From positions 1-64,000 of the forward strand of contig JAFGVA010000116.1 in NCBI GenBank assembly GCA_016938235.1: a stretch of 64,000 nucleotides of DNA, in the 5' to 3' direction. The notes under the pieces are model-generated. The model did not search any database and had not been told where the DNA came from. It was given only the letters and a program-made list of their open reading frames with translations. A program made the translations under genes and the position numbers. This DNA comes from Bacteroidales bacterium. GTDB taxonomy: Bacteria; Bacteroidota; Bacteroidia; Bacteroidales; UBA10428. How positions within the stretch are numbered: position 1 is the first letter of the stretch; each line of letters begins with the position of its first letter. This document shows, piece after piece, positions 34,037 through 38,071 of the stretch.

Positions 34037-35218
34037 ATGAAAGGAAAGATAAGAGTAGGCATTGCAGGAAAGAGCGGGCCATTTGAAAACATAAAAAACG
34101 CGTTATCACAAATCGATATTAGTAAGGTTAAAGGAAAGAGCGTTCTTATAAAACCGAATATTGGCAGAGAAGCTTTGCCGGAACACGGTTACAATACTCA
34201 CCCACAGGCTGTAGCAGCTGTCATTGAAGCGTTACAGGAAGCCGGAGCTGCAAAAATTGCTATTGGCGAAAGTCCACTTGTTGGAATTAACACTTTTGAG
34301 GCTTTTAAGAAAGCCGGTATTACTGAAATTGCAGATAAATATGAAATTGAATTAATTGATTTTGATGAAAGGAAACCGGTAACTGCTAATATTCCAATTC
34401 CCAGGGTACTAAAAAATACCCGTATAGCAGCCGAAGTTTTAGAGTACGATATTCTTGTTTCGGTGCCTGTTGCAAAAACCCATATGCACACCCAGGTTAC
34501 CTTAGGAATGAAAAACCTTAAAGGATGCCTATATCGTCACGAAAAGGTCAGGTACCACCAGCTGGAGTATATCGGGCATCAATTTTCTGAGAAAACACTA
34601 GACTCAGCTATTTCTGATTTATCGACAATTTTATTACCTGATATTACTGTAGTCGATGGCTATATTGGTATGGAAGGCCTTGGCCCTTCAGGAGGAACTC
34701 CGATTAAATCTGATTTTGCTGTAGCTTCAGCGCATCCTATTGCTGCCGATTTGTTTGCATGCGTGCTTATGGGTATTAATCCGGAAGATGTGGTACACCT
34801 GAAGCTTGTTGCAAAACGAAATAGTTTTTCCATGAACTTAGACCATTATTTACCCCCCGATAATTATACAGATTTTATTACCTCCTTTGAGCTTCCGCCC
34901 AAAACAATTGCACTTCATTTCGATGACACAATAATTTACGAGTGTGAAGCCTGTAGTTCATGTCTGTCAACATTAATGCTTTTCTTGCGCAGGTTTAGGG
35001 GCGATATGAATGATTTTAAACTTGATGATGGTAAATTTCATATTGCCATCGGAAAAGGAAACAAAAACGTAAAAGACGGTACCATTCTGGTTGGAAATTG
35101 CACAAGAAACCTAAATGATAAAGGCATTTTTGTTAAAGGATGCCCGCCTGTACCCACTCGTATTTATGAAGCTATAACCGGTACAGAGCCCGAAGAGAAC
35201 GAACCCGAAGTAGAATAA
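34037..35218 (+). CDS. DUF362 domain protein
   Basis: The 393-residue protein is a DUF362 member: SVLIKPNIGREALPEHGYNT (about 35-54), AAKIAIGESPLVGINTFEAF (about 75-94), ILVSVPVAKTHMHTQVTLGM with KNLKGCLY (about 151-178) and VVDGYIGMEGLGPSGGTPI (about 220-238). The C-terminal part has cysteines CEACSSCL and VGNCTRN with GIFVKGCPP that could hold a cluster, but not the usual ferredoxin CxxCxxCxxxCP pattern. The family has no proven reaction. It stands alone with 197 bp upstream and 178 bp downstream; the downstream gap holds the regulatory array of the exbD operon. Confidence 0.9.
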   Translation: MKGKIRVGIAGKSGPFENIKNALSQIDISKVKGKSVLIKPNIGREALPEHGYNTHPQAVAAVIEALQEAGAAKIAIGESPLVGINTFEAFKKAGITEIADKYEIELIDFDERKPVTANIPIPRVLKNTRIAAEVLEYDILVSVPVAKTHMHTQVTLGMKNLKGCLYRHEKVRYHQLEYIGHQFSEKTLDSAISDLSTILLPDITVVDGYIGMEGLGPSGGTPIKSDFAVASAHPIAADLFACVLMGINPEDVVHLKLVAKRNSFSMNLDHYLPPDNYTDFITSFELPPKTIALHFDDTIIYECEACSSCLSTLMLFLRRFRGDMNDFKLDDGKFHIAIGKGNKNVKDGTILVGNCTRNLNDKGIFVKGCPPVPTRIYEAITGTEPEENEPEVE

Positions 35219-35263: not shown

Positions 35264-35330
35264 CAAACTTATAATTACGTTAAAAAACTTAAAAATAAGT
35301 TGCACAACTTAAAAATAAGTTATAAGTTTG
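35264..35330 (+). promoter_or_regulatory. Operator array and promoter of the exbD-blaI-M56 operon
   Basis: Six half-sites lie here. AACTTA occurs at 35266, 35286 and 35306 (exactly 20 bp apart). TAAGTT occurs at 35296, 35316 and 35323. They form two identical palindromes AACTTAAAAATAAGTT (35286-35301 and 35306-35321) inside an outer 11-bp inverted repeat (CAAACTTATAA 35264-35274 with TTATAAGTTTG 35320-35330). The promoter is embedded in the array: TTG 35300-35302, 20 bp, then TAAGTTTG 35323-35330 (TAnnTTTG). A repressor bound here would cover the promoter. The BlaI-type regulator encoded downstream is the obvious candidate. Confidence 0.72.
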
Positions 35331-35396: not shown

Positions 35397-35960
35397 ATGG
35401 CTCGCAGGGAAATACCTGAAATCAATGCCGGTTCAATGGCTGACATTGCATTTTTATTGTTGATTTTTTTTCTGGTTACTACTACCATGGATACCGACCA
35501 GGGAATATTAAGAAAACTGTCACCTTACCTTCCTGAAGACCAAACTCCACCGGAAGTGCGTGAAAGAAATATCTTTGTTGTACTGGTTAACCGTGATAAT
35601 CAACTCCTGGTTGAAGGTGAAGTAATGAAAGTTGATAATTTAAAAGAGAAAACGATAGAGTTTATTCTGAATCCTGAAAACAAGACAAATTTACCCGAAA
35701 AGAAAATGAAGCTAATACCAATACTTGGTGAGCTTGAGGTTTCAAAAGGCGTAATTTCGCTTAAGTCAGACAGAGGAACTGAATACAACATGTTTATAGC
35801 AGTGATGAACGAACTTTCTGCTGCATTAAATGAAGTTAAAAACAATAAAAGTCTTCAGTATTTTGGGAAAGCACTCAAAGACCTTACAAAAGAGCAGCGT
35901 GAGGCGATTGACGATGCTGTACCGGTAATAATTTCGGAGGCCGAACCAAACAGAATATAA
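35397..35960 (+). CDS. exbD: ExbD/TolR-type biopolymer transport protein
   Basis: The 187-residue protein has a short cytoplasmic N-terminus, one membrane helix with the proton-path Asp (MADIAFLLLIFFLVTTT; Asp 16) and a periplasmic domain (about 45-187). The periplasmic part shows NIFVVLVNRDNQLLVEGE, the strand GVISLKSDRGTEY and the Bacteroidota-type C-terminal extension, ending ISEAEPNRI. ExbD subunits sit in the ExbB channel and turn proton flow into motion for TonB-like partners. No exbB or tonB gene is adjacent. Instead it is the first gene of an operon with a BlaI repressor (16 bp downstream) and an M56 protease whose C-terminus resembles this protein's own periplasmic part. Regulation is likely through the operator array at 35264-35330. 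Confidence 0.93.
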   Translation: MARREIPEINAGSMADIAFLLLIFFLVTTTMDTDQGILRKLSPYLPEDQTPPEVRERNIFVVLVNRDNQLLVEGEVMKVDNLKEKTIEFILNPENKTNLPEKKMKLIPILGELEVSKGVISLKSDRGTEYNMFIAVMNELSAALNEVKNNKSLQYFGKALKDLTKEQREAIDDAVPVIISEAEPNRI

Positions 35961-35976
35961 ATAAAAGCATATACAG

Positions 35977-36351
35977 ATGGTAACACTAACCAAAGCAGAA
36001 GAAAAAATAATGCAAATTCTTTGGGACCTGAAAAAGGGTTTTATTAACGATATTCTTGAATATTACGAAGAACCCAAACCTCCATATAATTCTGTTTCTA
36101 CCATCGTTCGGGTTTTGGTTAAAAAGGAAATTGTAGGTTATAAACAATATGGAGGTTCACACCAGTACTTTCCTTTGATTTCGAAGGACGAATACAGCAA
36201 AGGCCAACTCAGTAAACTGGTAAAGGATTATTTTAGTAATTCTTTTAAGCAAGTAGCCAGCTTTTTTTCAGAGAGCGATAAACTTAAATCTTCCGAAGTT
36301 GACGAGGTCATTAAAATGCTTGAAGAAATAAAACAGAAAAAAAATGGCTGA
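35977..36351 (+). CDS. BlaI/MecI/CopY family repressor
   Basis: The 124-residue protein is a standard BlaI-type winged-helix repressor: LTKAEEKIMQILWDLKKGFI (about 3-22), YNSVSTIVRVLVKKEIVGYK (about 38-57), SHQYFPLISKDEY, and a C-terminal dimerisation helix region (about 75-124; LKSSEVDEVIKMLEEIKQ). In the bla/mec systems such repressors bind palindromes over their own promoter and are inactivated by cleavage after the membrane protease BlaR1 is triggered. Here the M56 gene overlaps its 3' end by 8 bp, so repressor and protease are co-translated. Palindromes suited to such a dimer are at the operon promoter. Confidence 0.95.
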   Translation: MVTLTKAEEKIMQILWDLKKGFINDILEYYEEPKPPYNSVSTIVRVLVKKEIVGYKQYGGSHQYFPLISKDEYSKGQLSKLVKDYFSNSFKQVASFFSESDKLKSSEVDEVIKMLEEIKQKKNG

Positions 36352-38071
36352 GTATATAATATATCTGCTTGAAACCGGTGTTTGCCTTGCCCTGTTTTAT
36401 GTGGGCTATATTCTGCTGTTCCGGAAAGAAACCTACTTTGCATTTGTCAGGTATTACCTTATCTGTAGTATGGTTCTTGCGCTCGTTATTCCTCTTATTC
36501 ACATCGATTTAGCCTCCGATAATGCTTTACGGCGAAAAATAGAGAGCATACATCGATATAAAAGTTATTACGAAGAGGTTGTTCTGTTAACAGATGCTGA
36601 ATTTGATTTGGAAGATCAGCTTGCTGCCGGAGAAGAGATGGTCAATAAAAACCTCGAAAATAAAACTTTGGGTGCACCATTGGTTTCAGCTGATAAAAAT
36701 AAGCTAAACCGGGTACAACTAATTTTTTTTCTGGTATATGCTGCAGGGGTTCTGTTTTTCTTTGCAAGGTTTTTATACCTCTTGATTTGGCTTAATGGCT
36801 TCTCTAAAAAGAATAAAAAAGAAAACATTGACGGACTGAAATTAGTCACTCTTGATAAAGAAATGCCTTCGTTTTCGTTCTTCAACAGGATTTTTATTAA
36901 CAGAAATATACTTACGGCCTCCCAGTTTGAGCAGGTTTTTGCTCATGAAAAAATACATGCTAATCAAAAGCATTCTTTTGATTTATTGCTTGCTCATGTT
37001 TTTACCATTTTCCAGTGGTTTAATCCCCTGGTGTGGCGCATGCATAAATCGATGAAGATTGTTCATGAATATATTGCCGACCGCAAGGTGGTTGAACAAG
37101 GTTATGAGCTGTTCGATTACCAGTCCTTACTACTGAGTCAGTTAATCAGCATTCGCTCAGTTGAGCTGGTAAACAATTTTAACTTATTATCCATTAAAAA
37201 AAGAATAGCTATGATGAATAAAATGAAATCGGGACATATGGCAAAGCTTAAAGCAATAGTTGCTGTCCCATTGGTTATGTTGGTGTTTTTTGTGTTTTCT
37301 GATTTAACATTTGCCGATTCTGATGTTATTTCCGGAGAGACTAATCAACCACAGATCAGTAGTATAATGCCTGTAAACTCATGGCCGCTTGCAAAATACT
37401 ACAGAGAAATTGATATGGATCGGGTTAGTATAATAATCTGGTACGATGGTTCTAAAATGAGGCTTAATGAAAAGTTCTGCAATTTACAGGAGTTTCCGGT
37501 TGTTTTAGAAGAGTTTCTAAAAGAGAATACAGCAAATGCCGGGTATCATATGGTTCTGTTCGATATCGACAAACAGGTGAAAATGGAAGATATGTATTTT
37601 ATCTTTAAAACCCTTAGAGAGAACGAAGTTTATAAAGTAGCTTACAGGGTTATGCCCGAAAGTTCAAATTTTGACAAAAGTATAGTTTATGCCCAGCCAC
37701 AAATGTTGCCACCTATAGATGCACAAATAATTAAGAAGGATGAGCTTAGAAAAGAAGGCGTAAAACTGTTTGAGTATAAAGATGTTCCGGCCTCAGGAAT
37801 TGAAGATTTAAAAATGGATATCGAGAAGCTCATTCAGGGTAGTAAGAAATACATTATCGAATATGAATTTTCGAAAGAGACTACCTATGAAACATATATT
37901 AATAATACAAACGCAGTATTCCAGGTTTTCAATAAGGTGCGTAATTTCTATACTCAGGAAAACTATAATAAAAAACTTGATGAGCTGGAATCGGATGTTC
38001 AGGAAGAAGTCAGAAAAGTATTTCCTATTACGTTAATGATGGTTATGGCAGGGGAGGAGATACTTAATTGA
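36344..38071 (+). CDS. BlaR1-like M56 membrane metalloprotease with ExbD-like periplasmic domains
   Basis: The 575-residue protein has membrane helices at about 3-26, 34-55, 125-150 and 303-324. The M56 zinc site is intact: HEKIH (201-205) and HEYIADRKV (Glu 242) on the cytoplasmic side between helices 3 and 4. BlaR1 has a penicillin-binding domain after helix 4. Here residues about 355-575 read as two ExbD-like units. The first is about 358-437 (VSIIIWYDGSKMRLNEKF, LFDIDKQVKMEDMYFIFK). The second is about 455-575. Residues 513-561 align without gaps to ExbD 128-176, with 12 identities, both starting T-x-Y and ending at Pro. A cytoplasmic protease that cleaves the BlaI repressor on a periplasmic cue is the inferred role. 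The protease call is firm; the ExbD similarity is my own reading. Confidence 0.9.
   Translation: MAEYIIYLLETGVCLALFYVGYILLFRKETYFAFVRYYLICSMVLALVIPLIHIDLASDNALRRKIESIHRYKSYYEEVVLLTDAEFDLEDQLAAGEEMVNKNLENKTLGAPLVSADKNKLNRVQLIFFLVYAAGVLFFFARFLYLLIWLNGFSKKNKKENIDGLKLVTLDKEMPSFSFFNRIFINRNILTASQFEQVFAHEKIHANQKHSFDLLLAHVFTIFQWFNPLVWRMHKSMKIVHEYIADRKVVEQGYELFDYQSLLLSQLISIRSVELVNNFNLLSIKKRIAMMNKMKSGHMAKLKAIVAVPLVMLVFFVFSDLTFADSDVISGETNQPQISSIMPVNSWPLAKYYREIDMDRVSIIIWYDGSKMRLNEKFCNLQEFPVVLEEFLKENTANAGYHMVLFDIDKQVKMEDMYFIFKTLRENEVYKVAYRVMPESSNFDKSIVYAQPQMLPPIDAQIIKKDELRKEGVKLFEYKDVPASGIEDLKMDIEKLIQGSKKYIIEYEFSKETTYETYINNTNAVFQVFNKVRNFYTQENYNKKLDELESDVQEEVRKVFPITLMMVMAGEEILN

Follow-up and report, generated by a model that had tools for sequence, protein, structure and literature searches.

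The closest described counterparts of the locus studied here are the BlaR1-type receptors, so far known from antibiotic sensing, and the ExbD and TolR subunits of the Ton and Tol motors. In BlaR1 of S. aureus, signalling follows the displacement of an extracellular loop from the sensor by a beta-lactam; the protein cleaves the repressor BlaI directly between Asn101 and Phe102 and itself before Phe284 (PMC9834060). The periplasmic domains of ExbD form a swapped dimer with a groove between its protomers, and a segment of TonB can take the place of the swapped strand in this groove. When loosened, the dimer touches peptidoglycan, and ExbD of E. coli and Serratia binds glycan strands transiently (PMC10771500). 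TolR binds peptidoglycan when unswapped (PMC4646322).

We analysed a stretch of 64,000 nucleotides from a Bacteroidales genome, referred to as the window, in which an exbD gene, a blaI-type gene and a gene for an M56 protease follow each other on the forward strand. These genes lie at 35397-35960, 35977-36351 and 36344-38071, and their coordinates, reading frames and order agree with a preliminary description of the sequence. The features of the locus are as follows.

35266..35281, forward strand: operator-like dyad 1, AACTTATAATTACGTT (11/12), one of three dyads in an array with 20-bp spacing
35286..35301, forward strand: operator-like dyad 2, AACTTAAAAATAAGTT (12/12)
35306..35321, forward strand: operator-like dyad 3, AACTTAAAAATAAGTT (12/12), part of the conserved 20-bp array
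35300..35330, forward strand: promoter-like elements read from the sequence (TTG at 35300-35302, 20 nt, TAAGTTTG at 35323-35330), overlapped by the dyads
35397..35960, forward strand: exbD of the long type, membrane Asp kept (MADIAFLLLIFF); Pfam ExbD 4.1e-20, and tree
35977..36351, forward strand: blaI-type repressor; Pfam Penicillinase_R 1.3e-27, PDB BlaI 1sd4 E = 3.5e-6
36259..36264, forward strand: Ser95-Phe96 of BlaI, aligned with the cleavage site of S. aureus BlaI
36344..38071, forward strand: M56 (BlaR1-like) protease with a tandem ExbD sensor, 575 aa; Pfam Peptidase_M56 3.3e-11, above the cut-off
36944..36958, forward strand: HEKIH zinc site, residues 201-205
37067..37069, forward strand: Glu242, third zinc ligand
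37175..37180, forward strand: Asn278-Phe279, in a loop that probably matches the autocleavage loop of BlaR1
37235..37309, forward strand: last membrane helix, residues 298-322 in the model
37415..37654, forward strand: sensor domain 1, short-type ExbD, residues 358-437; hhalign 98.5%, E = 4e-15
37754..38050, forward strand: sensor domain 2, long-type ExbD, residues 471-569; hhalign 99.3%, E = 8e-21

The window protein is an M56 protease of the BlaR1 family with an intact active site. The zinc-binding residues had been read from the sequence as HEKIH and Glu242, and none of the residues His201, Glu202, His205, Glu242, Asp246 and Arg287 varies among the 40 aligned proteins. The putative autocleavage loop has Asn at position 278 in 39 and Phe at position 279 in 38 of the 40 proteins. 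The AlphaFold2 model of the full-length protein had a pLDDT of 75.7, with middling confidence in the membrane part. The top PDB matches of this model in a Foldseek search were four cryo-EM structures of S. aureus BlaR1 (5e-5 to 3e-4; 8exq 5.1e-5), and ExbD structures were also matched with a probability of 1.00. The strict definition of a BlaR1 beta-lactam sensor includes a C-terminal penicillin-binding domain, and Pfam detected no penicillin-binding or transpeptidase domain in the M56 protein, as had been claimed. The NCBIfam model blaR1_generic scored 45 bits, far below its cut-off of 400, with the best stretch at residues 188-325. The protein thus belongs to M56 and probably works like BlaR1/BlaI, but without the defining feature of the beta-lactam sensor.

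The last membrane helix, previously estimated to span residues 303-324 or so, also contains the start of a Pfam match to ExbD, which covers residues 306-436 with an E-value of 3.6e-5, just below the curated cut-off. ExbD motor subunits are defined by a membrane Asp in this helix, and the only acidic residue in positions 303-319 among the 40 proteins is at position 303 in a single protein; the helix core of the window protein has none. Since the proton-carrying Asp is missing, the protein cannot substitute for a motor subunit and would be a sensor rather than a part of the motor. By sequence, the sensor domains are members of the ExbD family, yet the protein is without the defining feature of the motor subunit.

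To classify the periplasmic part, we built hhalign models from 13 ExbD proteins of the long type and 13 of the short type, all encoded in ordinary exbB operons. Domain 1 matched the short type and domain 2 the long type with the values listed above (E-values for single comparisons), while the crossed pairings gave 14% for domain 1 versus the long type and 0.1% for domain 2 versus the short type. The C-terminus of the window protein scored 49 bits with the long model, and 1950 shuffles reached at most about 11 bits. The proposal of two ExbD domains was thereby confirmed and refined, in that the domains are of different types, short followed by long, and not one domain duplicated. A family profile also matched the ExbD structure 8pek in the PDB (E = 8.8e-7), whereas a single-protein PDB search with residues 300-575 gave no match. 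The genome of the window has an ordinary exbB operon with exbB, a gene for a 141-aa protein, a long exbD and a short exbD in succession, an order that is repeated in other genomes. The sensor is thus a short-long pair of the two ExbD types that are encoded side by side in the exbB operon of Bacteroidota.

The structural comparisons were performed on a model of the C-terminal 226 residues, which was predicted with high confidence as a compact fold (pLDDT 91.2, pTM 0.87). Domain 1 could be superposed on E. coli ExbD (8p9r) over 72 of 73 residues at 2.2 A (Z 8.8). The match to TolR (5by4), over model residues 58-221 and mostly in domain 2, was weak with a Z-score of 7.0, unrelated folds scoring about 5, and the identity of domain 2 as an ExbD domain rests on the sequence profiles. 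The Foldseek E-values for the sensor alone were weak (best 0.008), and the fold assignment therefore stands on the Z-score, the covered length and the profiles taken together.

The ungapped alignment of residues 513-561 to residues 128-176 of the window ExbD, from which the relationship was originally proposed, contains 12 identities in 49 positions, exactly as counted by hand. This number is modest, being reached by 33 of 3000 shuffles, but none of the shuffles reached the BLOSUM score. The same segment has 20/49 identities to the canonical ExbD (ExbD1) of the window's genome, a number reached by 0 of 3000 shuffles, and domain 2 is thus nearer to the canonical protein than to the neighbouring one. 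When the relatives were searched with the whole protein, stand-alone ORFs of about 200 aa were matched through residues 475-564 in many genomes, the canonical ExbD being the one matched in the genome of the window.

To determine the distribution of the fusion, we scanned 84,980 species genomes and retrieved 39 loci of this branch (L113-L150 and L186) from Carboxylicivirga, Plebeiobacterium, Labilibacter, Salinivirgaceae and further Bacteroidales. The alignment included the 38 loci that extend into the ExbD region, leaving out a fragment at a contig end (L135). Of 392 genomes sampled evenly across the order, 13 carried the fusion, with one more in a class sample. M56 proteins with the same C-terminus, for which a search had been suggested, occur in about 40 related genomes. 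A tree built from the protease parts placed all fusion proteins in one branch, with support values of 92/76 when the divergent L186 was included and 100/99 without it. The relatives are only 21-28% identical to the window protein, indicating fast sequence divergence, and in most of them domain 1 is separated from the last helix by an additional insertion that is absent from the window protein. Both ExbD domains are nevertheless kept in a common order, with Asp409, Met414 and Pro456 invariant. The probability that they have no sensing role, being an inert stalk or a fusion in decay, a reading with which the fast divergence would agree, is in our view very small, given this conservation and the compact fold predicted with high confidence.

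A gene for a BlaI-type repressor is located directly upstream of the M56 gene in each of the 36 relatives whose flank could be read, and in the window the two genes overlap by 8 bases. In the alignment with 1sd4, Ser95-Phe96 of the window BlaI corresponds to the cleavage site Asn101-Phe102 of S. aureus BlaI (site from PMC9834060). At this scissile position, Phe is present at P1' in 37 of 37 BlaI proteins and Asn at P1 in 30 of 37, the window protein having Ser.

The exbD gene is less regularly associated. It precedes blaI in eight loci, those of the window and seven others, and is absent from this position in about 29 of the 36 relatives with a readable neighbourhood. Six of the eight linked genes were included in a tree of exbD, in which they formed one clade (98/97; 99% of the bootstrap trees), distinct from the canonical exbD copies in those genomes; the window gene is a paralogue of the canonical exbD in the exbB operon on contig C126. 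All complete linked genes retain the motor Asp. Since the window is placed in a different sub-branch of the protease tree from the other seven exbD-linked loci, the linked exbD was either present early and lost often, or moved in. No conserved downstream output gene was found in the operons without exbD, and because the linked exbD is missing from most relatives, the only common output of the operon is the operon itself. A second long-type exbD follows closely on the canonical exbB operon, from which a terminator-like hairpin separates it (L042:6775-7377, minus strand).

Two or three dyads resembling AACTTA-N4-TAAGTT, in steps of 20-21 bp, lie ahead of the first gene in 33 of the 35 testable loci. 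This array precedes exbD where that gene is present and otherwise blaI. In the window, it is located between exbD and an upstream gene for a DUF362 protein on the same strand (34037-35218). The promoter-like elements that the dyads overlap resemble the Bacteroidota promoter consensus, TTG / TANNTTTG. Other BlaI-M56 pairs have an AACTAA-N4-TTAGTT dyad (several neighbouring groups) or none. From the position of the dyads, and from their change with the type of BlaI-M56 pair, we infer that BlaI binds them.

The paired dyad occurs in a single place in the 5.2-Mb genome of the window, and a reversed control pattern had zero occurrences. Exact single dyads elsewhere were found at close to the frequency of the reversed control and mostly inside genes; they look like chance occurrences and were rejected as regulon sites, and no regulon beyond the operon was found. 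With the paired dyad private to the operon and the single dyads chance-like, the circuit appears to control mainly itself, plus exbD in the lineage of the window. Among 13 genomes the only extra paired site is a double dyad that precedes a gene for an S41 peptidase by about 175 bp (L112:5388; G302:C9:1109387).

We consider it probable, at roughly 60%, that the locus encodes a BlaR1/BlaI-type relay in which a built-in ExbD pseudo-dimer is the sensor, binding a ligand of ExbD (either TonB or peptidoglycan) and derepressing its own operon. At rest, BlaI would occupy the three-dyad array over the exbD-blaI-M56 promoter. The covalent short-long pair would provide the same groove between protomers for TonB as the ExbD dimer does, and would bind or release the TonB segment there, or else would bind or release glycan strands of peptidoglycan. 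Such an event could shift the pseudo-dimer relative to the membrane, as in the BlaR1 sensor, and by the same analogy the displacement of an inner strand by the ligand could be the signal. Cleavage of BlaI at the Asn/Ser-Phe site by the zinc protease would then lead to expression of the operon, including an extra ExbD subunit in lineages like that of the window. TonB, ExbD and peptidoglycan are the candidate signals. In a more specific version, the receptor protease would read the state of the Ton/Tol motor, or the loading of TonB, and adjust the supply of a dedicated ExbD by destroying BlaI, in a feedback loop on motor state; we put this forward tentatively and regard it as rather doubtful.

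The preliminary description had interpreted the protease as sensing by pairing with ExbD and reporting the state of an ExbBD motor to BlaI. The BlaR1-like protease, the replacement of the penicillin sensor by two ExbD domains and the adjacent BlaI all stood up to the analysis; the direct pairing of the sensor with ExbD, either that of the neighbouring gene or that of the exbB operon, so as to read the assembly or rotation of the motor, fared less well. In its favour, the operons of the window and of the seven related loci begin with exbD, under the same dyad array, the linked genes are a clade of their own, and the types of the domains match those of the motor subunits. Yet most relatives have the same sensor in operons where exbD is missing, domain 2 resembles the canonical ExbD1 more than it does the neighbour, and with both types in one chain the protein could pair with itself and needs no partner for a dimer. 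Pairing with ExbD, whether that of the neighbouring gene or the canonical one, is thus possible but, in our estimate, unlikely. That the protease reports on the ExbBD motor is a reasonable inference, and the sensing of peptidoglycan or TonB fits the same data.

Alternatively, the ExbD domains may sense peptidoglycan or damage to the cell wall, the original theme of BlaR1, with the Ton motor uninvolved. This would agree with the transient binding of glycan strands by ExbD (PMC10771500) and by unswapped TolR (PMC4646322), with the presence of an M56-M23 protein in the window's genome, and with a blaI-linked M56 protein from Marinilabiliaceae (L242:2667-4481, minus strand) that joins one ExbD-long-like stretch to an M23 peptidase. 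The operon contains no wall gene, though, and the motor Asp kept by the linked exbD points to motor work over wall sensing, so that we give this reading a minority chance. A relay with a self-contained ExbD pseudo-dimer, whether for TonB or for peptidoglycan, is the reading that we prefer.

The M56 protein from Marinilabiliaceae is a second joining of M56 and ExbD, in which the ExbD-long-like stretch precedes the peptidase as an insertion and scores 62 bits against the window ExbD in phmmer. An ExbD-long-like stretch is also found in a lipoprotein-like protein of 260 aa without the ExbD membrane helix (L243:2904-3686, plus strand). The genome of the window encodes two more blaI-linked M56 receptors, at L044:4825-6639 and L042:16040-17347, one with two TonB_C domains and CarbopepD_reg and the other with an M23 peptidase. 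The start of a Cas9-like gene, recognised by eye, is located next to the BlaI-M56-M23 pair (L042:17974-19998, plus strand). Given the sensors with TonB_C, with M23 and with an ExbD-long-like stretch plus M23, the borrowing of envelope parts is habitual in these receptors, and the swapping of sensors for parts of envelope machines is usual in this family. The loci L087-L094 (e.g. L089:6592-7959, L090:7723-9147 and L093:5579-7024) encode proteins of about 470 aa with what is apparently the same tandem ExbD pair, preceded by roughly six membrane helices, and we know of no description of this protein family.

A literature search for ExbD together with BlaR1 or peptidase M56, covering 5.4 million open-access papers, found no description of such a system, in agreement with the earlier claim of novelty. 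With the penicillin-binding part replaced by two fused pieces of the Ton motor, the protein may report on the motor or the cell wall to a repressor. If so, the branch would show the BlaR1 relay listening to envelope machines of the cell itself, and would make it possible to study by genetics whether bacteria monitor the ExbBD motor, or the contact of the motor with TonB and the wall, and by what means. The fact that a short and a long domain are fused in tandem further suggests a heterodimer as the working form of the two ExbD types in Bacteroidota.

Compared with the known systems, the locus shares with the BlaR1/BlaI and MecR1/MecI pairs of Staphylococcus the key residues of the M56 gluzincins, a sensor that follows the last helix, an adjacent BlaI-type repressor with the Phe of the cleavage site, dyads over the promoter and the best full-length fold in the PDB. 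Unlike in those pairs, the sensor consists of two ExbD domains in place of the penicillin-binding domain, and the operon is without beta-lactamase or mecA, the only additional gene, where there is any, being exbD. Those BlaI-M56 pairs of Bacteroidota whose sensors are TonB_C or M23 domains have the same combination of repressor and protease, in the same genome, but differ in the sensor domain and the operator dyad. The orphan proteins of L087-L094 have the tandem ExbD pair in common with the window protein but lack both the protease and blaI. ExbD and TolR themselves resemble the sensor in the profiles for both domains and in the fold of domain 1, whereas in the window protein the domains are arranged in tandem, fused to a protease and preceded by a helix without the motor Asp.
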